Of a stretch of DNA of 64,000 bases, positions 18,713-50,536 are shown in pieces. Each line of letters starts with the position of its first letter. Position 1 is the first letter of the stretch. The stretch lies in contig JAIYAM010000015.1 in the NCBI GenBank assembly GCA_027489065.1, positions 1-64,000 of the forward strand, in the 5' to 3' direction. A program made the position numbers and the translations under genes. The notes below the pieces were generated by a model. It ran no database searches. It was given only the letters and a program-made list of their open reading frames with translations, and was not told where the DNA came from. Origin of the DNA: Erythrobacteraceae bacterium. Lineage in GTDB: Bacteria; Pseudomonadota; Alphaproteobacteria; Sphingomonadales; Sphingomonadaceae.

Positions 18713-20074
18713 ATGGGAAGCGAGTTTATGACCAAGACGAAAATCATGCGCGCAGCGCTGCTGGCGGGCGTTCTCGCGGTCGGCCTGACCGGCTGCAAGG
18801 GCGGCCTGTTCGGCGGCGGCAAGGACAAGACCACGCCGACCATCGGCAACCGCACCCCGATCCTCAGCCGCATCGAGAACGGGGCCGAGGTCGATCCGGC
18901 GCTGGCCGGCATCTCCGTGGTGCTCCCGGCGCCGCGCACCAACCCCGAATGGGCGCAGGCCGGCGGTTCGGCGAGCAAGTCCTACGGGCACCTCGCTTTG
19001 GCCGAGAACCCCTCGCGGGTCTGGACGGCGAAGATCGCCGGTTCGAGCAACCGCGTGCGCCTTGCCGCAGCCCCGGTGATCGGCGGCAACAAGCTGTTCG
19101 CGGAAGGCACTGACGGCGTGATCACCGCCTTCGACAAGAACACCGGCGCGCGCCTGTGGTCCCGCGCCGACGACGAGATGACCAAGGACCAGCGCCCCTC
19201 GGCCTTCGGCGGCGGGGTCAGCTTCGAAGGGGGCAAGCTCTACGCCACCAACGGCGTGGGCGAGGTCAAGGCGCTGAATGCCGATACCGGCGAGGTGCTG
19301 TGGAAGGTCAAGCCCGCAGGTCCCCTGCGCGGTTCGCCCACCATCGCCTTCGGCGAGCTGTTCGTGATGACGCAGGACAACCAGCTGATCTCCCTGAAGG
19401 CCGAGGATGGCTCGCTGGTGTGGGACGAGAGCGGTTCCAATACCCAGTCGGGCGTGTTCGGCGTCGCGGCGCCTGCCGCCGGGCAGGGCACCATCGTTGC
19501 GGGCTATTCGAGCGGCGAGCTTTCCGCCTACCGCTACGAGAACGGCCGCACCCTGTGGTCGGACGCGCTGGCGCGCACCAACATCTCGACCACCGTGGGC
19601 ACGATCACCGATATCGACGCCGATCCGATCATCGATTCGGGCCGCGTCTATGCGCTCGGCCAGGGCGGGCGCATGGCCGCCTATGAACTGGTCACCGGCC
19701 AGCGCATCTGGGAATTGAACCTCGCCGGCATCTCCACCCCGGCGATCGCGGGCGAGTGGATCTTCACCCTCACCGACGATGCGCGCCTGCTCGCCATCGC
19801 GCGTTCGAGCGGCCGGGTGCGCTGGGTCGCCCAGCTTCAGCGTTATCGCGACGAGGAAGACAAGAAGGGTCCGATCTTCTGGACCGGTCCGGTGCTCGCG
19901 GGCGGCCACCTGTGGGTGGCAAGCACGCGCGGGGAGCTGTGGAAGGTGAGCGTGGGCGAAGGCTCGGCGACGCTGTTCGCCGATGTCGGCCAGCCCGTCA
20001 GCCTCGCTCCGGTCGTTGCCGACAACATGCTCTACGTGTTGGACGACAGCGGGACGATCAGCGCCTTCAAGTGA
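18713..20074 (+). CDS. bamB: PQQ-like beta-propeller outer membrane assembly protein BamB
   Basis: Lipobox LAVGLTGCKG; repeated blades GARLWSRADDE, GEVLWKVKPAG, GRTLWSDAL, GQRIWELNLAG. Confidence 0.88.
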   Translation: MGSEFMTKTKIMRAALLAGVLAVGLTGCKGGLFGGGKDKTTPTIGNRTPILSRIENGAEVDPALAGISVVLPAPRTNPEWAQAGGSASKSYGHLALAENPSRVWTAKIAGSSNRVRLAAAPVIGGNKLFAEGTDGVITAFDKNTGARLWSRADDEMTKDQRPSAFGGGVSFEGGKLYATNGVGEVKALNADTGEVLWKVKPAGPLRGSPTIAFGELFVMTQDNQLISLKAEDGSLVWDESGSNTQSGVFGVAAPAAGQGTIVAGYSSGELSAYRYENGRTLWSDALARTNISTTVGTITDIDADPIIDSGRVYALGQGGRMAAYELVTGQRIWELNLAGISTPAIAGEWIFTLTDDARLLAIARSSGRVRWVAQLQRYRDEEDKKGPIFWTGPVLAGGHLWVASTRGELWKVSVGEGSATLFADVGQPVSLAPVVADNMLYVLDDSGTISAFK

Positions 20075-20106: not shown

Positions 20107-20150
20107 TAGACCCCCGCCAGACCCCCTGCAGACCCCTCCCAGACCCGCTT
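20107..20150 (+). repeat. 11-bp tandem repeat array A (4 units, consensus YAGACCCCnnn)
   Basis: tagacccccgc|cagaccccctg|cagacccctcc|cagacccgctt. Confidence 0.85.
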
Positions 20151-20212: not shown

Positions 20213-21625
20213 ATGCCTCTGCCGCTTTCGCCTTCCCTCCAGACGCGCCCTGCGCCGCCCGCAAGCGACGTTTCTGCGGGCGTGGGCCTTGCCGGATTGG
20301 CGGGGCTGCTGGTGTGGATCCTCTTCTGCCGCTCCTATCCCGAGATCGCCGAAAGCCTCGGGCTGGTCGGCCTGCTGTCCGGCGAAAGAGGCGTTCTTTC
20401 AGGTCCTTATGCGGCACTTGCGGCACTGATTTTCAGCGCCGTCCCGATGGCCCTGTGGTCGGTTCTGGTCGACAAGGTGCATTTGAGACCCTCCACCGGA
20501 CTCGACTGGAGCCTCAGGCGCCCGCTGGCCGAGGTGCTGCCGGTGTCGGTCATCAAGCTGGTCGGCCTGTGGGCGACATGGGCGGTGCTTGCCGCCTTCT
20601 ACGCGCTCGCCCGCTGGTACTGGTCGGGCCCCTACCTGTTCGCCATGGAGGTGCTAAGCGGCGCCATCCTGCCGCTGGTAATGCTTTCTGTCCCTTACGT
20701 AATCTGGCTCGATCGGTTCATGGTGGAGCCGCGAGACGGGGCGTTCCACTTCGGCGCCTTCGTGGTCGGCGGAGGGATGATCGGCCGCGAGCAATGGGAC
20801 AGCGCGGGGCTCGCCAAGCACTGGCGCGCCTGGGCGATCAAGGGCTTCTTCGGAGCCTTCATGATCTCGATCCTGCCGCCCGGCTTCGCGCAGGTCGTGC
20901 AGGCACAGCCAGCGCAACTCATTGCCAATCCTGTCGAATTCGTGATGCTGCTGGTGACCCTGCTGTTCCTTGTCGACGTGCAGCTCGGCACGGTCGGCTA
21001 CCTGTTCACCCTGCGCCCGCTGGATTCGCACATCCGTTCGGGCAATCCGTTTCTTGCCGGCTGGCTGGCCGCCCTGCTGTGCTATCCGCCCTTCGTGTGG
21101 GGGATCATCGGGCCGGACCAGCAGATCCTCAGCTACGAATTCGGCACTCCCGGATGGGCGCACTGGCTGGGCGGAAGCGATGCGCTGCTCTGGGCTTGGG
21201 GCGGGGTTTTGCTATTCCTGACAGGCATTTATGCCTGGGCGACAGTGGCCTTCGGGATTCGCTTCTCGAACCTGACCTATCGCGGCGTGCTGACCAATGG
21301 CCCCTACCGCTTCACCCGCCATCCGGCCTATCTGGCGAAGAACCTGTTCTGGTGGGCCTCGGTCATGCCCTTCCTGGTGACCAGCGGCACCTGGCTCGAC
21401 GCTGTGCGCAATTGCGTTTTCCTACTGGTCGTCAACGGCATATATGCCTGGCGGGCGCGCACCGAAGAGGCGCACCTGCTCGCTGAAGACCCGAAATATC
21501 GCGAATATCACGCCTGGATGGAAGAACACGGGCTGATTACCGCGCCGCTCGCAAGGCTCAGGAAGCGCATCACCGGGGGCGTCGCGCCCCGTCTGCACGG
21601 AGCCGAGGCGCACCCCGCCGAGTAG
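20213..21625 (+). CDS. Integral membrane protein with C-terminal isoprenylcysteine carboxyl methyltransferase-like domain
   Basis: Multiple TM; YRGVLTNGPYRFTRHPAYLAKNLFWWASVMPF; EEAHLLAEDPKYREYHAWMEEHGLI. Confidence 0.75.
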   Translation: MPLPLSPSLQTRPAPPASDVSAGVGLAGLAGLLVWILFCRSYPEIAESLGLVGLLSGERGVLSGPYAALAALIFSAVPMALWSVLVDKVHLRPSTGLDWSLRRPLAEVLPVSVIKLVGLWATWAVLAAFYALARWYWSGPYLFAMEVLSGAILPLVMLSVPYVIWLDRFMVEPRDGAFHFGAFVVGGGMIGREQWDSAGLAKHWRAWAIKGFFGAFMISILPPGFAQVVQAQPAQLIANPVEFVMLLVTLLFLVDVQLGTVGYLFTLRPLDSHIRSGNPFLAGWLAALLCYPPFVWGIIGPDQQILSYEFGTPGWAHWLGGSDALLWAWGGVLLFLTGIYAWATVAFGIRFSNLTYRGVLTNGPYRFTRHPAYLAKNLFWWASVMPFLVTSGTWLDAVRNCVFLLVVNGIYAWRARTEEAHLLAEDPKYREYHAWMEEHGLITAPLARLRKRITGGVAPRLHGAEAHPAE

Positions 21626-27129: not shown

Positions 27130-27669
27130 TTAGCCTTCGGGGCCCAGCTCCGGATCGAGATCGCGGGGGCGCGCGAAATGCACCAGCTCCGCGCAATAGC
27201 GCTTCAGATCGGCCCAATGTTCGACATCGCACTCGAGCACGGCGTAGGCGGCGGTCGGGAATTTCACGACCGCCTCCTTGAACAGCGCGTTCTCCTTGCC
27301 CGGCGCGACCAGCTCCAGCAGCACGTCCTGCAAACCCGGATTGTGCCCGGAGATGAGGATCGTCTTCGCCTCGTCGTCGCCGCTGCCGGCATGGGCCTCG
27401 ATCGTCTCGACGATGCTGTCGAAGCTGGCGAGGTAGAGCCGCTGGTCCCAGATCACCGGCGCATCGGGCAGCGCGCCTTCCAGCGTCAGCTTCACCCGCA
27501 CCGCAGGGCTGGCGATCAGGCGGTCCCACTTCACCCCGTGGTCGCGGATATGCTTGCCGATCAGCTCGGCACCCTTGCGACCGCGCGCGTTCAGCCCGCG
27601 ATCGAAATCGCGCTGGTTGGCGTCGTCCCAGTCGGACTTGGCGTGGCGCAGAAGGCCCAGAATCTTCAT
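27130..27669 (-). CDS. Histidine phosphatase family protein (SixA-like)
   Basis: MKILGLLRHAKSDWDD...RDFDRGLNARGRKGAELIG; LISGHNPGL. Confidence 0.88.
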   Translation of the reverse strand: MKILGLLRHAKSDWDDANQRDFDRGLNARGRKGAELIGKHIRDHGVKWDRLIASPAVRVKLTLEGALPDAPVIWDQRLYLASFDSIVETIEAHAGSGDDEAKTILISGHNPGLQDVLLELVAPGKENALFKEAVVKFPTAAYAVLECDVEHWADLKRYCAELVHFARPRDLDPELGPEG

Positions 27670-30416
27670 GGCAGCAAGGCACCTCGCGAGGGAACGGCTT
27701 GCCCCTGCGAAACACCACCCGACAGGCGTTGTAAAGCCTGATCGAGCGTGACGCGCAGCACCGGGGTCCCCGGCGGGAAGGCGCTGAGCAGCCGCGAGGG
27801 GAAAGCGGGCGACAGGACGATGAAATGCCCCGCATCCTCCTTGCTGCGGATCAGCCGCCCGAAGGCCTGCGCCAGCTTGGCGCGGATGATGCGGTCGTCA
27901 TAGGCAGAGCCGCCGCCAGCGAGCCTGCGCGCCTTGTGCAGAATGTCGGGACGCGGCCAGGGGACCTGCTCCAGCACCACGCACCGCAAGGAGTGGCCGG
28001 GCACATCCACCCCGTCGCGCAAGGCATCCGTGCCGATCAGGCTGGCGCGCGGATCGTCGCGGAAGATGTCGACCAGCGTGCCGGTGTCGATCGGGTCGAC
28101 ATGCTGGGCATAGACCGGCAGGCCCGCCCGCGCGAGGCGGTCGGCGATGCGGCCGTGGACGGCGCGCAGGCGGCGGATCGCGGTGAACAGCCCGAGCACG
28201 CCGCCGCCGCTCGCCTCGATGATCCGCGCATAGGCTCCGGCCAGCGCGGGCAGATCGCCCTTGGCGATGTCGGTGACGATCAGCACCTCGGCGCGGGCCG
28301 CATAGTCGAAGGGGCTTTCCGCCGCCGAGAGCAGCGGGGCGACCTCGACATGGGCCGCGCCGGAGCGCTGAATCGCGCTTGCCCAGCGGTCATCATCCTG
28401 CGTGCGGTCGGTCAGCGTTGCGCTGGTCAGCATCACGCCGTGCGCCGGTTCCAGCACGACGCGGGCGAAGGGCTTCATCGGATCGAGCCAGCGGCGGTGG
28501 ATCGCCACATCGAATTCGCGCGCGTCGGAGCGGTCGACCGCGAGCCAGTCGACGAATTCGGGATCGGCAGGCCCACCGAGCCGGTCGAGCAAAGCTTCCC
28601 ACGCGGCGATCAGGTCGATCCGCCATCCGAGAGCGAAGCGCGCCCCCTCGATCCGGGCGCGCCCTTGCGCGTCGAGCCAGTCGGGCGGTTCGGCAAGGAT
28701 GGCTTCGAGCCTGCCGCCGAGCCGGATCAGCGGGACGCGGATTCCGGCGAGGGCTTCGGCGGCATTGCTGGCCGCCTCGATCACCTCGCCCGGCAGGCCC
28801 GCCGCTTCGGTCTCGATGCCGTAGCCTGCGTCGATCCCGCCGCTTTCGTCGCGGGCATAGGTGGCGGTGCGCACGGCGGCGAGCAGGGCTTCGATGGGCC
28901 CGAATGGCGCGTTCTCGGCGAGGCGCTGGAGCCAGCCGTCCGACGGGAGCAATTGCCCCGCCTTGCAGGCCGCCGCGATGGCTTCCGCGCCCGCCTCGTC
29001 ATAGCTGGCGATATCCGCAAGCCTTGCGGCGAGGCCCCGCCTGCGTCCGCGCGCCTCGCGTTCCGGCCCCATGATCCAGCGGCGCAATTCGATGGTCTCC
29101 TGCCCGGAGAGCGTCGCGGCAAAGGTGCTGTCGGCGGCGTCGAAGACGTGGTGGCCCTCGTCGAAGATCAGCCGCGTCGGGCGCTGGTTCGGATCGCGGG
29201 CGCGGGCGGCGTTGACCATCACCAGCGCGTGGTTGGCGATGACCAGATCGGCCTGTGCGGAATCGCGTGCGGCGCGCTCGATGAAGCACTTCCGGTAATG
29301 CGGGCACCCGGCATAGATGCACTCGCCGCGCTGGTCGGTGAGCGCGGCGATCCCGCGCTTGCGGAACAGTGTCCCGAGCCAGCCAGGCAGGTCGCCGCCC
29401 ACCATGTCGCCGTCGCGGGTGAAGGCGCCCCAGCGTGCCACCAGATGGGCAAGGATCGCAGGCCGCCCGGTGAAACCGCCTTGCAGCGCGTCCTCGAGAT
29501 TGAGGAGGCAGAGGTAATTCTCGCGGCCCTTCCTCACCACCACCGGGGGGGTGCCGTCGGCGCGCTTCACCGGCCAGGCGCGGCGGCTCTCGGCGCGCAG
29601 CTGGCGTTGCAGGTTCTTGGTGAAGGTCGAAACCCACACCGTGCCGCCCGCCTGCTCCGCCCACAGCGAGGCGGGGGCGAGGTAGCCCAATGTCTTGCCG
29701 ATGCCCGTGCCCGCCTGCGCCAGCGCGAGGTGGGGGCGGCCCGGTGCGGAGCGGGGGGCGAAAATGCGCGCGGCGTCCTGCGCATAGGCGCGCTGGCCGT
29801 CGCGCTGTTCGGCGCTCTCGCCGGTCAGGCGGGCAAGCTGCGCCGCGATGGCCTCGGGCGCGAGATCGACTTGGCGGGGGGCGGGGCGCTCTCCGGTTTC
29901 CTCCCATTCGGGCAGGCGGGCGAAGAGCCAGCGCTCGGCCCTCTCGGGCTTGGCGATGTGCGAGCGCAGCACCTGCGCCCAGGGCCAGCGCAGGCGTTCG
30001 AGGGACTGGAGCGCGCTCCACGCGCCCTCGCGCTCGAACCATTCGGGGTCCTCGCACACCGCGACAAGCGCGCCGGCTGCGCGCTGGAGCAATTCCGGCA
30101 CGGCGGCGTCGTTTTCGGGAATCGGCAGGCCGAGCGCTTCGGCCAGCCCGCGCGGGGTCGGCACGCAGAAGCGCGCGGGGTGGATGAAGGCGAAGGCCTC
30201 GAGCAGATCGAGGCCCGAAAGGTCAGGATAGCCGAGCCGGCTCGCCACAAGCGGCGCGTTGATCATCAGCACCGGCGTGTCGGCGGCGGCCATGATCGCA
30301 TCGCCCTTGGAGACGGCATTGGTGATGCCATTCGCCGCACGCAGCCAATGCCCGCCGTGGCTCGCATGGAGCGCGGGCAGGGGGACGGGATCGGGGAGGG
30401 TGGGCAGAGGACTCAC
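27666..30416 (-). CDS. DinG-family ATP-dependent DNA helicase
   Basis: QAGTGIGKTLGYLAPASLWA (Walker A), Cys cluster CIYAGCPHYRKC, IFDEGHHVFDAADS (DEGH), LIGTDALRDGVDVPG; start may be internal (30293). Confidence 0.88.
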   Translation of the reverse strand: MSPLPTLPDPVPLPALHASHGGHWLRAANGITNAVSKGDAIMAAADTPVLMINAPLVASRLGYPDLSGLDLLEAFAFIHPARFCVPTPRGLAEALGLPIPENDAAVPELLQRAAGALVAVCEDPEWFEREGAWSALQSLERLRWPWAQVLRSHIAKPERAERWLFARLPEWEETGERPAPRQVDLAPEAIAAQLARLTGESAEQRDGQRAYAQDAARIFAPRSAPGRPHLALAQAGTGIGKTLGYLAPASLWAEQAGGTVWVSTFTKNLQRQLRAESRRAWPVKRADGTPPVVVRKGRENYLCLLNLEDALQGGFTGRPAILAHLVARWGAFTRDGDMVGGDLPGWLGTLFRKRGIAALTDQRGECIYAGCPHYRKCFIERAARDSAQADLVIANHALVMVNAARARDPNQRPTRLIFDEGHHVFDAADSTFAATLSGQETIELRRWIMGPEREARGRRRGLAARLADIASYDEAGAEAIAAACKAGQLLPSDGWLQRLAENAPFGPIEALLAAVRTATYARDESGGIDAGYGIETEAAGLPGEVIEAASNAAEALAGIRVPLIRLGGRLEAILAEPPDWLDAQGRARIEGARFALGWRIDLIAAWEALLDRLGGPADPEFVDWLAVDRSDAREFDVAIHRRWLDPMKPFARVVLEPAHGVMLTSATLTDRTQDDDRWASAIQRSGAAHVEVAPLLSAAESPFDYAARAEVLIVTDIAKGDLPALAGAYARIIEASGGGVLGLFTAIRRLRAVHGRIADRLARAGLPVYAQHVDPIDTGTLVDIFRDDPRASLIGTDALRDGVDVPGHSLRCVVLEQVPWPRPDILHKARRLAGGGSAYDDRIIRAKLAQAFGRLIRSKEDAGHFIVLSPAFPSRLLSAFPPGTPVLRVTLDQALQRLSGGVSQGQAVPSRGALLP

Positions 30417-30521: not shown

Positions 30522-30576
30522 CAGACCCCCTCCAGACCCCTCTTAGACCCCCGCTAGACCCCCGCCAGACCCCGCC
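30522..30576 (+). repeat. 11-bp tandem repeat array B (5 units, YAGACCCCnnn)
   Basis: cagaccccctc|cagacccctct|tagacccccgc|tagacccccgc|cagaccccgcc. Confidence 0.9.
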
Positions 30577-30595
30577 AGAGGGTGCGTCGCGGCGC

Positions 30596-30611
30596 TGTTT
30601 CACGTGGAACA
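30596..30611 (+). promoter_or_regulatory. Candidate parS (ParB-binding) site
   Basis: TGTTTCACGTGGAACA; reverse complement TGTTCCACGTGAAACA exactly matches TGTTNCACGTGAAACA. Confidence 0.8.
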
Positions 30612-30677: not shown

Positions 30678-32294
30678 ATGACGATAACCCAAGATGCTCT
30701 CATCGCCGCTGCGCAGAACTCCAAGGCCTGGCCGTTTCAGGAGGCGCAGCGCCTCGCCAAGCGCCTGCCGGAGGGCAAGCCGGGCGGGGTGCTGTTCGAG
30801 ACCGGATACGGCCCCTCGGGCCTGCCGCATATCGGGACTTTTCAAGAGGTTCTGCGCACTTCACTGGTGCGCCGCGCCTATGAGACGCTGACCGGCGGCG
30901 CAGCGACGCGGCTCGTCGCCTTCTCGGACGACCTCGATGGCTTGCGCAAGGTGCCCGACAACGTCCCCAATCAGGCGATGCTCACCGAACATCTCGGCAA
31001 GCCCCTGTCGCGCATCCCCGATCCGTTTGAAAAGTTTGAAAGTTTCGCCGCGCACAACAACGCGATGCTGCGCGATTTCCTCGACCGCTTCGGCTTCGAG
31101 TATGAATTCGTGAGCTCGTCGGACTGCTACAATTCGGGCAAGTTCGACGATGCGTTGAGGGGCGTGCTGGCGAACTTCGGCGCGATCCTCGACATCATGC
31201 TCCCGACCCTCGGCGAGGAGCGCCGGCGGACCTATTCGCCCGTCATGCCGATCAGCCCGACCACCGGCGCGGTGTTGCAGGTGCCTATCGAAGTCATTGA
31301 TCCACAAGCCGGAATCATCCGTTTCACCGACGAGGGCGGCAGCACTGTCGAGCAATCCGCGCTCGGCGGCATGGCCAAGTGCCAGTGGAAGGTCGACTGG
31401 GCGATGCGCTGGGTGGCGCTCGGCGTCGACTACGAGATGTACGGCAAGGACCTGACCGACTCTGGCATCCAGTCGGGCAAGATCGCCCGCGTGCTCGGCG
31501 GCAACAAGCCCGAAGGGCTGATCTACGAGCTGTTCCTCGACGGCAAGGGCGAAAAGATCAGCAAATCCAAGGGCAACGGCCTGTCGATCGAGGACTGGCT
31601 GAAGTATGGCAGCCAGGAGAGCCTCGGCTTTTACATCTTCGCCAATCCCAAGAGCGCCAAGCAGCTCCACGCCGGCGTGATCCCCAAGGCGATCGACGAT
31701 TACTGGCAGTTCCGCAGCAGCATTCCCGGGCAGGACGCCGACAAGCGGCTGGGCAATGCGGTGTGGCATCTGCTGCGCGCGAACGAGCGTCACGAAGGCG
31801 CCGACGCGCCAGGGCAGGGCGACATGCTGCCCGTGCCGTTTAGCCTGCTCCTCAACCTCGTCGGCGTGCTCGGGCCGGGCGCGACACGCGAGGCGGTGTG
31901 GTCCTATCTCGGCAATTATGTCGAGGACGCCGATCCCGCCGCGCACCCGGCGCTCGACGCGCTGGTCGGCAAGGCGCTCGCCTATAACCGCGACTTCGTG
32001 GCCCCCACGCTGGCCAAGCGCGCGCCTGCGGGCGGAGAGGTGGGGGCGCTTCAGGCGCTGGACGCGGCGCTTGCCGCTGCCGACCCGGCGACCAGTGCAG
32101 AAGACCTCCAGACCATCGTCTATGAAATCGGCAAGCAGCCGGAATTCGGTTTCGAGTCCTTACGCGACTGGTTCAAGGCGCTCTACGAGACGCTGCTGGG
32201 CTCCGAACAGGGTCCACGCATGGGGAGCTTCATCGCGCTCTATGGCATCGCGCCCACCCGCACGCTGATTGCCGAGGCGCTGGCGAAGGCCTAA
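30678..32294 (+). CDS. lysK: Lysyl-tRNA synthetase, class I
   Basis: HIGH-like GLPHIGTFQE, KISKS (GEKISKSKGNGLS), class I LysRS architecture; in-frame ATG 30678. Confidence 0.94.
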   Translation: MTITQDALIAAAQNSKAWPFQEAQRLAKRLPEGKPGGVLFETGYGPSGLPHIGTFQEVLRTSLVRRAYETLTGGAATRLVAFSDDLDGLRKVPDNVPNQAMLTEHLGKPLSRIPDPFEKFESFAAHNNAMLRDFLDRFGFEYEFVSSSDCYNSGKFDDALRGVLANFGAILDIMLPTLGEERRRTYSPVMPISPTTGAVLQVPIEVIDPQAGIIRFTDEGGSTVEQSALGGMAKCQWKVDWAMRWVALGVDYEMYGKDLTDSGIQSGKIARVLGGNKPEGLIYELFLDGKGEKISKSKGNGLSIEDWLKYGSQESLGFYIFANPKSAKQLHAGVIPKAIDDYWQFRSSIPGQDADKRLGNAVWHLLRANERHEGADAPGQGDMLPVPFSLLLNLVGVLGPGATREAVWSYLGNYVEDADPAAHPALDALVGKALAYNRDFVAPTLAKRAPAGGEVGALQALDAALAAADPATSAEDLQTIVYEIGKQPEFGFESLRDWFKALYETLLGSEQGPRMGSFIALYGIAPTRTLIAEALAKA

Positions 32295-34253: not shown

Positions 34254-35537
34254 TTACCAGAAGAAGTCGTAGATCGTGTCCACCACCTCGCCGGAGTAGA
34301 TGTCGACGAGCAGCACATCATCATAATAGCGGACCCACTGGTACGGCCCGTAGGCCGGGGGCAGGCGGTAGGCCCAAGGATCGTTGATGAAGAAGCGCGG
34401 CTGGAAGAACAGGCTGTCGAGGAACAGCCCGACCGAGAGCCGGTTGTAACGGTGGCTGCGGAACGGCGCGTAATAGGGGCCGGGCCGGAAGAGGAACTGG
34501 TTGCCCCTGCGGAAATCGAACCAGTTGTAATTGCGGCTTGTGCGCCAGCGATTGTCCCAGCGGCGGAAGTCGCGATTGTCCCAGCCGGGTCGGCCGTTCC
34601 AGCCCCAGCGCCAGTCATCCCGTCGCCAGTCGCGGCGATCCGCCCGCCAGTCGCCGCGGCGCCCATCGCGCCAGTCGTCCCCGCGACGATCATCACGGCG
34701 CCCGTCGCGCCAGTCGCCGCGGTCACGGCCCGTGCCGAGCCAGCCGGCGTCTCCGCGGCCTCGGTTGCGGTCTTCGACCCGGTCTGCGCGGCGGTCGCCA
34801 CGGTCCTCGATGCGGTCTGCACGTCGGTCGCCTCGGTCCTCGATGCGGTCGGCGCGGACGTCACCGCGCTGCTCGATGCGGTCGGCGCGCCGTTCGCTGC
34901 GGCGATCGACCTGATCAGCGGCGGCATCGCGGCCGCGCCATTCGAGCCGTTCGGCGCGTGCGTCACCGCGCTGTTCGACGCGGTTCGCCTGCCATTCGCT
35001 GCGCCGGTCCACGCGATCGGCGCGCTGTTCGCTGCGATCATCGACCCGGTCGGCGCGCTGCTCGCTGCGGCGTTCGATCCGCGCTGGCCGAGGGGTGTCG
35101 GGCCGCGCCGATTGCGCGCTGGCGCCGACGCCGGCTCCGAAGCCGCCCCGCTCGCGGCGACCGCCACGCGCATCGCGGGGAGCCAATGTGGCGGCACCGG
35201 CTCCGACATCGGGATCGATGCGTGTGATCCGGGTCCGCGCCGGAGCGGAAGGCGTGTAGGCCGGCGGCGCGACGTAGGCGCGGCCAGCGGGCTCGGCGGT
35301 TCGCTCGAGACGCGCAGGCCGCTCGGCACGCGGAGCGCGCTCGGGCCGGGCAATCGCGGCCCGCGGCGGGCTGCCGCTGCGCTCCACGCGCGACGGACGC
35401 TCGAAGCGCGGGGGCGACGGATCGTCAGCCTCGGGGCTCGACACAGCCTGCGCTGCGGCAGGAACGGCCGGGAGGGTAAAGGCGAGGACCGCGGCGAGCG
35501 CCGCAAGCGATCCGCCTCTCGCAAAGAGGTTCATCAT
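34254..35537 (-). CDS. RcnB-like secreted protein with central Arg/Asp/Glu-rich 11-residue repeats
   Basis: Signal peptide; repeats RSEQRADRVDD...; C-terminal YNRLSVGLFLDSLFFQPRFFINDPWAYRLPPAYGPYQWVRYYDDVLLVDIYSGEVVDTIYDFFW typical of the RcnB family. Confidence 0.8.
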   Translation of the reverse strand: MMNLFARGGSLAALAAVLAFTLPAVPAAAQAVSSPEADDPSPPRFERPSRVERSGSPPRAAIARPERAPRAERPARLERTAEPAGRAYVAPPAYTPSAPARTRITRIDPDVGAGAATLAPRDARGGRRERGGFGAGVGASAQSARPDTPRPARIERRSEQRADRVDDRSEQRADRVDRRSEWQANRVEQRGDARAERLEWRGRDAAADQVDRRSERRADRIEQRGDVRADRIEDRGDRRADRIEDRGDRRADRVEDRNRGRGDAGWLGTGRDRGDWRDGRRDDRRGDDWRDGRRGDWRADRRDWRRDDWRWGWNGRPGWDNRDFRRWDNRWRTSRNYNWFDFRRGNQFLFRPGPYYAPFRSHRYNRLSVGLFLDSLFFQPRFFINDPWAYRLPPAYGPYQWVRYYDDVLLVDIYSGEVVDTIYDFFW

Positions 35538-45896: not shown

Positions 45897-48050
45897 TCAG
45901 GCCGCCGCTGCCAGAACTGCGGTGCCATGCGTGCGCGCCGCGGAGCTTGCGATGAAGTCGACATCGACGATCAGCGCGACCTGGCCATTGCCGAGGATCG
46001 TCGCGCCCGCGACGCTGTCGATCTGGCGGTAATGCGCGTCCAGCGCCTTGATGACGAACTGGCGCTGGTCGGTGATGGTGTCGACGAGCAGCGCAGCGCG
46101 GCCGTGGCCCTCGGTCTCGACCAGCACCAGCACGCCCTCGCAGGGGTTGGTGGTGGCTTCGGTGGCGCCGGTGAGCAGTCCCAGCGGGATGATCGGCACG
46201 AAGCTGCCGCGCGCATTCAGAACCTGCGCGCTGGTACCCATGCCCTTGACGTCGGCCGGGGTCGGGCGGAGGCTCTCGATCACGTGGGTGAGCGGGATCA
46301 CCAGCGACTGATCGCCGACCTGCACGATCATCCCGTCCGAGATCGCCAGCGTCAGCGGCAGGGCCAAGCTGAAGGTGGTGCCCTTGCCGGGCACGCTCTC
46401 GATGGTGATGCGGCCGCCAAGTTCCTTCACGTTCTGCTTCACCACATCCATGCCCACGCCGCGGCCCGAAATGTTCGAGACCTGCGCCGCGGTGGAGAAG
46501 CCGGGGGCGAAGATCAGCTGATTGATGTCGTCATCGGAAAGCTGCGCCTCGGGGGCGACGAGGCCGTTGGCGATCGCCTTGGCCAGCACGCGCTCGCGGT
46601 CGATCCCGCGCCCGTCGTCGGCGATGCGGATGATGATCCGGCCCGCCTTCTGCTCGGCCGAGAGCGACAGCGTGCCCTCGGGGTCCTTGCCCGCGGCGCG
46701 GCGTTCTTCGGGGGATTCGATCCCGTGGTCGACGGCGTTGCGGATGAGATGGGTCATCGGCTCGCTGAGGCGCTCGATGACGGTCTTGTCGAGTTCGGTG
46801 GTCTCCCCCGCGACCTCCAGCTTCACGTGCTTGCCGGTGCTGCTGCCAAGTTCGCGCAACAGGCGGGGGACACGCCCGAACACCGAGCTGATCGGCTGGG
46901 CGCGGAACGCCATCGCGTGCTCCTGGATGTCGCGCACCAGCGTCTCGATGAGGGCGAGTTCCTCGATGTGGGCGAGGTCCTCGTTGGTGAGGCGCTGGGC
47001 GAGCATGGCCTGGGCAATGACCAGCTCGCCCACGCCGTCGATCAGCATGTCGAGCTTGCGCAGATCGATGCGCACCGACTGGTTGGCAGGCGCGGGCGAC
47101 CCGGCTGCTGCTGCTGTTGCTGCTGCGGGCGCCGCAACGGGATCGCCGCCGCTGACGGCGACGGGGGCAGGTGCGCTGATCGGCGCGGGCGCGGGCTCCG
47201 ACCCGGCGCGGGGTCCAGCGGCGGACGAGGCGATGCGCGGGGGCGGCATGGTGCCTTCAGGGCCAAAGGCGAGCGCGACCTCGTCGCCGACGAAGTCGAA
47301 GATTTCGGCGACGGCCTCGCGCGAGACATGGCCGGGCATGCGGAAGGTCCAGCCGAGATAGCCCTGCTCGACCTGCAGGCGCTCGAAGGTCGGCACAGCG
47401 GTGATGTCGCAGGTCTCGCAGGTGCCGCCGAGATCGGTGAGTTCGCGCAGCCACAGGAGCGGCTCGCTGCCCTTGGTCATGGCGCCCGCATGGGGGCGGA
47501 TATGGACGATCCAGGACTCCGGTCCCGCGGGAAACGCCTCGAGCGCTGGCGCGGGCGCGGCGAGCTCGTTGAGTAGCGCGTCGAGATCGTCGAAGGCGGG
47601 GGCCGGGGAGGGGCTGGGAGGCACCGGCGACGGCGCCGCCTCGGGCGCGGTCATCGCGGGTGCGGCGCCTGCGTTGCACGCCTGCGCGGCCTCGAGCCGG
47701 GCGAGGAGGTCGGCATCGTCGGGCGGGGTTCCGCCCCCGCGTGCCGCCTCGACATGGTCGCGCAGGCAGTCGAGGGCGAGCAGCAGCAAGTCGACCAGCA
47801 CCGGCTCCACCGGCACCTTGCCTTCGCGCACGTCCGCCAGCAGGGTTTCGAAACCGTGGGTGAAGGCCTGGAGCGGCAGGTAGCCGAATGCGCCGGCGCC
47901 GCCCTTGATCGAATGCACGCCGCGGAAGATCGCGTTGATGGTTTCCCCGTCGTGGGTTCCTTCACGGCAGGCCGCCAAACCGGTCTCTGTCGCTTCCAGG
48001 GCTTCCTCGCATTCGACGAAGAAGATCTGCTGGATGTCGTCTTCGGTCAT
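45897..48050 (-). CDS. cheA: Chemotaxis histidine kinase CheA
   Basis: Hpt HSIKGGAGAFGY; HATPase LIRNAVDHGIE, DDGRGID, SNISGRGVGMDVVK; CheW-like C-terminus. Confidence 0.97.
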   Translation of the reverse strand: MTEDDIQQIFFVECEEALEATETGLAACREGTHDGETINAIFRGVHSIKGGAGAFGYLPLQAFTHGFETLLADVREGKVPVEPVLVDLLLLALDCLRDHVEAARGGGTPPDDADLLARLEAAQACNAGAAPAMTAPEAAPSPVPPSPSPAPAFDDLDALLNELAAPAPALEAFPAGPESWIVHIRPHAGAMTKGSEPLLWLRELTDLGGTCETCDITAVPTFERLQVEQGYLGWTFRMPGHVSREAVAEIFDFVGDEVALAFGPEGTMPPPRIASSAAGPRAGSEPAPAPISAPAPVAVSGGDPVAAPAAATAAAAGSPAPANQSVRIDLRKLDMLIDGVGELVIAQAMLAQRLTNEDLAHIEELALIETLVRDIQEHAMAFRAQPISSVFGRVPRLLRELGSSTGKHVKLEVAGETTELDKTVIERLSEPMTHLIRNAVDHGIESPEERRAAGKDPEGTLSLSAEQKAGRIIIRIADDGRGIDRERVLAKAIANGLVAPEAQLSDDDINQLIFAPGFSTAAQVSNISGRGVGMDVVKQNVKELGGRITIESVPGKGTTFSLALPLTLAISDGMIVQVGDQSLVIPLTHVIESLRPTPADVKGMGTSAQVLNARGSFVPIIPLGLLTGATEATTNPCEGVLVLVETEGHGRAALLVDTITDQRQFVIKALDAHYRQIDSVAGATILGNGQVALIVDVDFIASSAARTHGTAVLAAAA

Positions 48051-48307
48051 GCCGCAACGCCCCCTTCCATGATCACGAGGTCGAGCCCCGTCAGCGCCAG
48101 CGCTGCGGTGAACGCTCCGCTGGGCTGGTGGATCGTGATCCCGCCTTCACTTCTCGCCGCAGAAACAAGCAGTTGCAGCATCGCTTGGCCGATCTTCTCG
48201 ACCCGTCCGGCATCGACGCCGAGGGGCGCTGCGCCGAGGCTTTCGGCGAATTCCGGGTAGAGCGCGGCGGCGGCGCTGCGGTCGCAGACGGGCGGGAGAG
48301 CGATCAT
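48047..48307 (-). CDS. STAS domain protein (MlaB-like)
   Basis: 86 aa; GAAPLGVDAGRVEKIGQAMLQLLVSAARSEG...; start of the cheA-proximal unit. Confidence 0.7.
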   Translation of the reverse strand: MIALPPVCDRSAAAALYPEFAESLGAAPLGVDAGRVEKIGQAMLQLLVSAARSEGGITIHQPSGAFTAALALTGLDLVIMEGGVAA

Positions 48308-48334: not shown

Positions 48335-48409
48335 GGGGTCTGGAGGGGGTCAAGCGGGGGTCAAACAGGGGTCAAGCGGGACTTAAACGGCCTCTGGACG
48401 GGGTCTGGG
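48335..48409 (-). repeat. 11-bp tandem repeat array C (about 7 degenerate units)
   Basis: Minus strand: cagaccccgtc|cagaggccgtt|taagtcccgct|tgacccctgtt|tgacccccgct|tgaccccctc|cagacccccc. Confidence 0.8.
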
Positions 48410-48425: not shown

Positions 48426-50408
48426 CTAGAACTCGCTCCAGTCATCCTCGTCGGGCAGAGCGGAGGGCATCGGAAGCGGAGCCGGGACCGGCGCGGCCGC
48501 AACCTTGCGTGCAAGGTTGCCGGATACCGGCGGCAGAGAAGGCGGCGGCGGGGGGGCGGCAGGCTTGCGCGGTGCCACCTTGCGCACGGTCTGCGCCCGC
48601 GGCGAGGCGTGGGTGGCGAGGGCGGGGGCGGGTGCGGGAGCGCCGCCATGGCCGGACGCAGCGCCCAGACTTCCGCCGCCACCGCTCACCCGGAACTGCG
48701 TGACCAGTTCGCCGAGGCGCTGGGCTTCGGAGGAGAGGCTGCGGGTCGCGGCGGTCGACTGTTCGACCATCGCCGCGTTCTGCTGCGTCATGCGGTCGAT
48801 CGTCCCGACCGCGACATTGACCTGTTCGAGATTGCTCGCCTGGGCGGCGGTGGTCTCGGCGATCTCGTTGACCTGCGCGGTCACGGCGCCGACCTGTGCG
48901 ACGATCTCCGCGAGCAGCGTGCCGGTTTCGCCGACCAGGCTCACCCCGTCGCCCACGTGGGCGGTCGACTTGCCGATCAGCGCCTTGATGTCGCGCGCCG
49001 CGTCGGCCGAGCGCTGGGCCAGCGCCCGCACCTCGTTGGCTACCACCGCGAAGCCCTTGCCGGCCTCCCCGGCACGCGCCGCCTCGACCCCGGCGTTGAG
49101 GGCGAGCAGGTTGGTCTGGAAGGCGATCCCGTCGATCACGTCGATGATCTGGGTGATCTCCTTCGCCGAATGCTCGATCGCGTCCATCGCCGCGACCGCC
49201 TTTCCGACCACGGCGCCGCCCTCGGTGGCGCGGGCATGGGTCTGGACGATGGCCTGGCGCGCGGCGACGGCGCTCTCGGCCGACTGGCGGGTGAGGCTGA
49301 CGGTGGTGCCGACCGAGGCGGCGGTCTCCTCGAGGCTCGCGGCCTGCTGTTCGTTGCGCAGCGCGAGGTCTTCGGAAGCTGCGCGGATCTCGTCCGAGCT
49401 GGTGCGCACGCCCGTGGCGGTGGCGCGCACCGCGCCGATCATCGCTTCGAGGCGGTCGATCGACATGTTGTACATCTCGCGCAGGTTCGGCCTTTGCTTG
49501 CTCCTCCGCTCGGGGTCGACGACCACTTCGGGCATCGACGCGATCCTGTAGGTAAGATCGCCAGTCGCCAGCCGGTCGAGCGCGGTTGCCATGGTCTCGA
49601 CGATCTCGGTCTGGGCAACCGCGCGCGACTTGTCGGACTTGAGCGCTGCGCGGAAGGTCTCGATCGCGCGGGTCATGGTGCCGAATTCGTCGCTGCGATG
49701 CTCGCTGGTCACACCCGCATTGTGGTTGCCCTCGGCCATTGCGCGCATGGTGGCGCCGATCGAAGCGACCGGCGCAAGCATGCCGCGCCGCACCCACTGG
49801 TAGGCCCCGAACAGCGCCGCGAACAACAGCAGCGCGCCGCCGAGTGCGCTCGCAACGATCAGCGTGGTGGTCGAGGCGATCTGGTCTTCGGTCTGCTGGC
49901 GATACGCCATGATCTGCTCGCGCAGAGCGTCATTGGCCTTGCGCTGCGCCCGGTAGATTTCGAGCAGGCGGCCGTGCGAGGCCTTGATGGCGGCATCATC
50001 CCCCCGCTGCACAGCCGGCTTCAGGCGCAGGTTGACCTCCTCCCAGAAGTCCTTCCCGTTGCTGCCGACATTGGCCGCGATGCCCGCCTTCAGTTCCGCC
50101 GGGATCGGTTTGTCCGACCAGTTGCGCGCGGCCGCATCGAACTCCTCCTCCAGCACCTTCAGACGCTGATCGTTGATCGCATAGGCATCGCGGTGGATCG
50201 TCATGATGCTGGCATTGGCGAAGGCTTCGACCAGGAACAGCGGGGGCGGCATGAAGTCGGCACTGAAGTCTGCGACCGCCTTTTGCTGGTCGTCGAGGGA
50301 TCCGCCCACCCGCAGGTGGTTCACCGCGAAACCGAGTCCCAGGATGATCAGCGCCATCGCTCCGCCAAGCGCGAGCGCGCCGATGCGCGAAATCTTCTCG
50401 ATAGTCAT
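48426..50408 (-). CDS. Methyl-accepting chemotaxis protein (periplasmic sensor, HAMP)
   Basis: Two [53 protein letters not shown]; upstream in-frame ATG at 50462 possible. Confidence 0.95.
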
Positions 50409-50536
50409 ATCTGCGTCAGTCCTGTTCTGGCCCTGATCCAGCAAACCGATGGGGGCGTTCACATCGTTGAATTTGCTGGATTTGAGATAAGGTCGGCTTG
50501 CGCTTTGCCTATGCGCAAGTCCCTAGGCTGCGCGCC

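Follow-up and report, generated by a model that had tools for sequence, protein, structure and literature searches.

Four C-rich units of 11 bp stand in tandem between a bamB-like gene and a methyltransferase-like gene, and the initial annotation of this locus took them for an upstream element of the gene that follows, either a repeated protein-binding face or part of a 5′ UTR. What kind of element is such an array? We addressed this question in the 64,000-nt stretch of DNA that holds the locus (the window), in the genome from which it comes (G000, 3.38 Mb in 60 contigs) and in genomes of the same family.

Arrays in the window

Array A consists of the units TAGACCCCCGC CAGACCCCCTG CAGACCCCTCC CAGACCCGCTT and is present as initially described. 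The two further arrays of the same class that had been reported at 30522–30576 and 48335–48409 are confirmed as well, with TRF detecting arrays A, B and C at a period of 11 each. The motif [CT][AT]GACCC forms 10 pairs exactly 11 bp apart in the window and none at lags of 8–10 or 12–14, and 200 runs of a Markov-1 simulation of the window gave no such +11 pair. The features of the three loci are:

18713–20074, + strand: gene for a BamB-like outer-membrane assembly lipoprotein (PF13360), whose stop codon precedes array A
20107–20150, + strand: array A, four 11-bp units, C-rich strand plus, array only with no parS attached
20213–21625, + strand: gene for an ICMT/DUF1295-like membrane methyltransferase downstream of array A, start codon uncertain
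27666–30416, − strand: DinG-like helicase gene (PF13307), divergent to lysK and left neighbour of element B
30522–30576, + strand: array B, five exact units, the array half of a complete composite element
30577–30595, + strand: degenerate units bridging array B and parS, with 22 bp (2 × 11) from the last CCCC to parS
30596–30611, + strand: parS of locus B, TGTTTCACGTGGAACA, which matches the parS pattern TGTTYCACGTGRAACA in full
30678–32294, + strand: lysK, gene for class I lysyl-tRNA synthetase (PF01921), downstream of element B
45897–48050: cheA-like gene, following the STAS-domain chemotaxis gene near array C
48047–48307, − strand: STAS-domain chemotaxis gene downstream of array C
48335–48409, − strand: array C, about seven units of the TTGACCCC/CAGACCCC type, some degenerate, C-rich strand minus, array only
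48426–50462, − strand: gene for a methyl-accepting chemotaxis protein (PF00015), whose stop codon precedes array C

The distance of 62 bp from array A to ATG 20213, as given in the initial annotation, is correct; the nearer stop codon of the preceding same-strand gene (20074), 33 bp away, had gone unweighed. The palindrome at 30596, the only full TGTTYCACGTGRAACA match in the window and the key to the nature of the repeat family, had escaped notice. The window further contains 33-bp tandem repeats at 34768–34897 and 34995–35069, whose period is a multiple of three and which perhaps lie within coding sequence.

A composite element of array and parS

A two-unit pattern searched through the whole genome with up to two mismatches gave 123 + 125 hits on the two strands vs 22 + 13 for a reversed-pattern control. 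Unit spacing is almost strictly 11 bp (428 kb of G000 sequence), and most aligned arrays run into the parS palindrome (TGTTTCACGTG[A/G]AACA), as TGTTTCACGTGAAACA or TGTTTCACGTGGAACA. We examined the flanks of 127 arrays, drawn from the window's own genome, from loci of up to 8 kb of named Erythrobacter/Porphyrobacter genomes and from a few unrelated taxa, for parS with up to three mismatches within 150 bp of the array. Read along the C-rich strand, the palindrome lies 3′ of the array in 91 cases and 5′ of it in none. The distance from array to parS is 11, 22, 33, 44 or 55 bp, give or take 1–2 bp (n=87; R=0.90, Rayleigh p~3e-31). This phase lock at multiples of 11 lends support to the early suggestion that the period of 11 bp, close to a helical turn, presents a repeated protein-binding face.

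When 93 elements are aligned on parS, their base composition reveals an AGACCCC block every 11 bp as far as the palindrome, and the gap between array and parS consists of decayed 11-bp units. The layout is [YAGACCCCNNN]n, one or more in-phase degenerate units, and parS. In 15 of 16 asymmetric palindromes the changed half (GGAACA) is the one distal to the array (p=5e-4), a bias that suggests joint action of array and parS as an oriented unit. Of 122 elements, 121 have a palindrome that matches parS fully or with one mismatch, and the arrays drift freely; the array caller demands that half of the units be exact and therefore misses some degenerate arrays, e.g., C45:141656. At the origin-cluster parS of G003, G022, G025 and G035, no arrays occur on either side. 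Judged from these comparisons, the array of 11-bp units makes up the oriented half of a composite element of the chromosome, whose other half is parS.

Seven viral contigs, several of them AT-rich, carry AGACCCC arrays of 11-bp period and are probably unrelated. All seven are without parS, and a phage origin of the arrays is rejected.

Number of parS sites and joint sequence change with the origin cluster

Counted with the pattern TGTTYCACGTGRAACA, parS occurs 68 times in G000, 54 times in G003, 55 in G022, 54 in G011, 59 in G017 and 42 in G016. Across the family (399 genomes, 96 genera), nearly all genomes have 0–4 sites; the exceptions with more than four are some members of this genus, genus g117 (5–13) and a few single genomes. 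G003 and G022, single contigs that we treated as whole chromosomes, each have an origin cluster of eight parS beside parB and 45–47 dispersed parS on both chromosome arms, and the best carriers hold ~45–60 dispersed parS outside the origin. The dispersed sites have the 16-bp palindrome TGTTnCACGTGnAACA that is the criterion for chromosomal parS; their sequence makes them parS, their location does not.

Origin and dispersed sites have changed together. In G022, 52 of 55 parS read TGTTCCACGTGGAACA, at the origin as well as elsewhere, and nearly all parS listed for G003 read TGTTTCACGTGAAACA. Orthologous dispersed sites of the two genomes carry each genome's own version, with two intermediate forms; the G003 loci in this comparison were partly chosen for carrying parS, which inflates the rate of shared sites. 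A sequence change common to dozens of unlinked sites and to the origin cluster points most readily to a shared recogniser, and we regard it as strong evidence that origin-cluster and dispersed parS are under shared recognition.

Position at gene 3′ ends and possible transcription termination

We determined the gene neighbours of the elements with a gene caller of our own. The 112 elements with array and parS comprise 61 between convergent genes, 33 co-directional in sense orientation, 13 co-directional in antisense orientation and 5 between divergent genes. Among background gene pairs, convergent ones number 241, co-directional ones 967 and divergent ones 203, so that 54% of the elements vs 17% of the background lie between convergent genes (p~3e-19), where the background pools loci chosen for carrying arrays, orthologous loci are non-independent and the context p-values are approximate. 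Elements avoid gene starts, and array-only members are found in 8 sense, 7 convergent and 1 divergent positions. Of 128 arrays, 109 (~85%) follow a stop codon with the C-rich strand as the sense strand. Between convergent genes, the distance from parS to the opposing stop is typically at most 30 bp.

The initial annotation had the C-rich strand as the coding strand of the downstream gene. This is true of loci A, B and C and fails genome-wide, where most arrays are convergent. The upstream position drew on three loci, two of them of the co-directional array-only type, and is contradicted by the convergent majority of array–parS elements; arrays relate consistently to the array-side gene's stop codon instead of the next start codon. 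As a general reading, an upstream or 5′-UTR element is therefore rejected, most arrays being convergent or placed after stop codons. At locus B of the window, the element lies in a divergent promoter region and is absent from most orthologous loci.

The position after stop codons brings in the main rival for the array half, a termination module in which the array is a rut site at gene 3′ ends and parS-bound ParB is a roadblock for RNA polymerase; loci A and C, without parS, would then be plain Rho-dependent terminators. RhoTermPredict defines a rut site by C>G and cytosines every 11–13 nt, followed by a pause site (PMC6407284). The unit CAGACCCCCTC has C>G with cytosines at this spacing (C−G excess +0.12 in G003), so that the arrays resemble Rho utilisation sites in C-richness, cytosine period and location. 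Termination is further favoured by the predominance of the sense strand past stop codons, by the ratio of co-directional sense to antisense elements (41:13, p=2e-4; 15 of 16 among array-only members) and by the smaller share of convergent gaps with an intrinsic terminator where the element is present (2/15 vs 17/42, p=0.065). However, the array keeps strictly to an 11-bp phase with parS, which is a property of the DNA helix with no obvious role in RNA, and most arrays have 2–6 units (up to ~63 bp), which is below the rut length of 78 nt. The array sides in G035 are without C excess (C−G −0.01), 18 elements are antisense or divergent, and termination leaves both the exact parS palindrome and its joint change with the origin sites unexplained. 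We consider this reading unlikely, although more probable than the other rivals treated below.

Distribution along the chromosome, ParB and possible nucleoid occlusion

Dispersed sites in G022 are uniform with respect to origin distance (KS p=0.67) and leave no gap at the terminus. The corresponding test in G003 gives p=0.26, with a single site in the sparse 0.6 Mb at 2.48–3.09 Mb around a terminus that was placed by weak GC skew. The minimum gap between dispersed sites, 11.6 kb in G022 (p=0.0002) and 8.3 kb in G003 (p=0.004), is above random, and two parS sites in G000 are only 2.9 kb apart; even spacing is suggestive only.

Matches to the ParB family PF02195 number one per genome in G000, G003 and G011, which leaves no Noc-like ParB paralog in these three, and a full-length ParB lies beside the origin parS cluster in G003 and G022. 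Among 11 aligned ParB proteins of 20 loci, a set without G016, G017, G010, G025 and five non-carriers, all are ordinary and of full length, no insertion or domain change is seen in carriers, and there are only a few substitutions near the helix-turn-helix (HTH). At this place carriers read SHVANMMRLM (or close) and aligned non-carriers SHVANLQRLL; G022, with TGTTCCACGTGGAACA at nearly all of its parS, is alone in reading SHIANMHRLM.

A number of ~50–70 dispersed palindromes per chromosome recalls the ~70 sites of the ParB-family protein Noc in Bacillus subtilis (PMC4331003), and the sparse terminus of G003 fits as well. ParB, perhaps via MipZ, would here replace Noc and couple division to the chromosome. 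Noc-binding sites, however, have a different palindrome, a dedicated Noc paralog and terminus depletion, none of which is found here in full: the palindrome is that of parS, the best carriers are without the paralog, and the sites of G022 extend uniformly through the terminus. Nucleoid occlusion of the Noc type is improbable as the explanation, somewhat more so than termination.

Carrier clade and possible mobility of the element

Genomes whose LysK is at least ~88% identical to that of the window all have a raised parS number, and those with LysK at most 83% identical do not, except G034. A branch of the LysK tree with 100/98 support has the 17 carriers of the tree all to one side, G034 among them on a long branch, and by this gene tree the carrier clade is shown to have one origin. 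G000, G016, G003 and G017 have the element at the lysK locus, and so does G025, where the left neighbour is another gene; most other carriers are without it there and differ in the whole intergenic region. A TGACA..GTGTCAACTTTGTCA-like motif recurs upstream of lysK in genomes without the element there.

Array and parS are separable. In G035 the dispersed parS are mostly without a clear array and a few have another 11-bp unit, GCTTTGCCCGN, from which it follows that parS dispersal may predate the arrays. The dispersed parS of this genome are often an extended palindrome, AATGTTTCACGTGAAACATT. Elsewhere in Alphaproteobacteria, many TGTTYCACGTGRAACA sites occur in a few sampled genomes, namely G672 (79 sites; 1.8 Mb, from another family), G655 (18), G805 (18) and G646 (13). 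These are perhaps independent parS dispersals in other lineages.

A patchy, multi-copy presence among orthologous loci, enrichment where insertions do least harm and identical multi-unit strings common to some arrays would also be expected of a selfish or neutral dispersed repeat of the MITE/REP type that happened to capture parS and is tolerated for the most part at the 3′ ends of genes. Such repeats have near-identical copies with defined ends or inverted termini, unlike the copies here, which differ and have only unit motif, phase and parS in common. Comparison of orthologous loci at lysK revealed neither terminal inverted repeats nor a clean insertion with target duplication; instead, whole intergenic regions are replaced. 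The palindrome is kept nearly intact while arrays drift, and orthologous copies retain parS and track the genome-wide sequence shift. We give the selfish repeat a small chance, slightly below that of a Noc-type role.

A G-quadruplex or replication-polarity signal of the G-rich strand is very improbable: GGGG in each 11 nt would give 7-nt loops, but many arrays have fewer than four G-tracts, units in G035 have shorter tracts, and the replication-orientation signal is rejected by the mixed strands of G022 arrays on both replichores (~10+/11− and 16+/10−, hand count).

Discussion

Bacterial centromeres are thought to be confined near the origin, since segregation and division suffer when further copies lie elsewhere. 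These Erythrobacter appear to have spread the docking sites of their centromere protein over the entire chromosome. The sequences show array and palindrome to be linked, polar and in phase, restricted to a clade and placed at gene 3′ ends, with dispersed and origin parS changing together; the two make up a composite element. It is best explained, in our judgement probably correctly, as a dispersed ParB-loading site joined to a one-sided, helically phased platform for an accessory protein.

In this explanation, (i) the cell's single chromosomal ParB would load at dispersed parS in the same way as at the origin cluster, and (ii) small ParB-CTP clamp domains would arise all around the chromosome. 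These domains may serve chromosome organisation, be it condensin loading, nucleoid condensation or a Noc-like link to division. The array would be a helically phased platform on one side of parS for a putative accessory DNA-binding protein, which may bound or direct the ParB/SMC complex or block force-bearing centromere action. Placement between convergent genes would hold the complex away from promoters, and array-only loci such as A and C may be relics or stand-alone accessory sites. The ParB substitutions near the HTH are a possible specificity determinant.

Against this explanation stands that misplaced parS impairs segregation in Caulobacter (PMC5815017) and in P. aeruginosa (PMC5098823), as do the separability of array and parS in G035 and the divergent, mostly unshared position of the element at locus B. 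Since ectopic parS is costly, dozens of active dispersed parS would need a compensating mechanism and would have to differ from true centromeres; the array is the visible difference. We put forward, tentatively and at less than even confidence, that an oriented ParB-loading element at dozens of convergent sites could yield a multi-site, ParB/SMC-organised and functionally holocentric-like chromosome, in which array and putative protein would give direction and avert centromere conflict.

Comparison with known systems separates the element from each of them. Chromosomal parS of ParABS lies almost exclusively in the origin domain (PMC5815017, PMC7022226). The sites described here have the identical 16-bp palindrome, coexist with a normal origin cluster and a normal ParB in the same cell and changed sequence together with the origin sites in G022, yet they are dispersed in dozens and have a one-sided 11-bp array that is missing at origin parS. 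ParR/parC and other iteron centromeres of type Ib, II and III plasmids have direct repeats of about one helical turn beside their own par operon (PMC5016525) and are bound by a wrapping centromere-binding protein of ribbon-helix-helix or similar type. The arrays likewise consist of direct repeats, strictly 11 bp apart, but are chromosomal, multi-copy, joined to parS and set among unrelated housekeeping genes, and no par operon is seen beside them in the loci inspected. In Pseudomonas aeruginosa, half-parS sites are also genome-wide secondary ParB sites outside the origin (PMC10419367); those are heptamer half-sites, whereas here full palindromes occur far above chance. A search of the open-licence literature returned no description of dispersed full parS or of the composite of array and parS, and parS together with Erythrobacter returned only unrelated uses. 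We know of no named counterpart of the composite of parS and phased array.

A clade with ~50 evolutionarily maintained dispersed parS, most of them marked by an array, is a natural system for asking what makes a ParB site a centromere. It also lets one ask what limits SMC loading sites and how multi-centromere chromosomes could be tolerated, and the finding points to a probable new partner protein of ParB.
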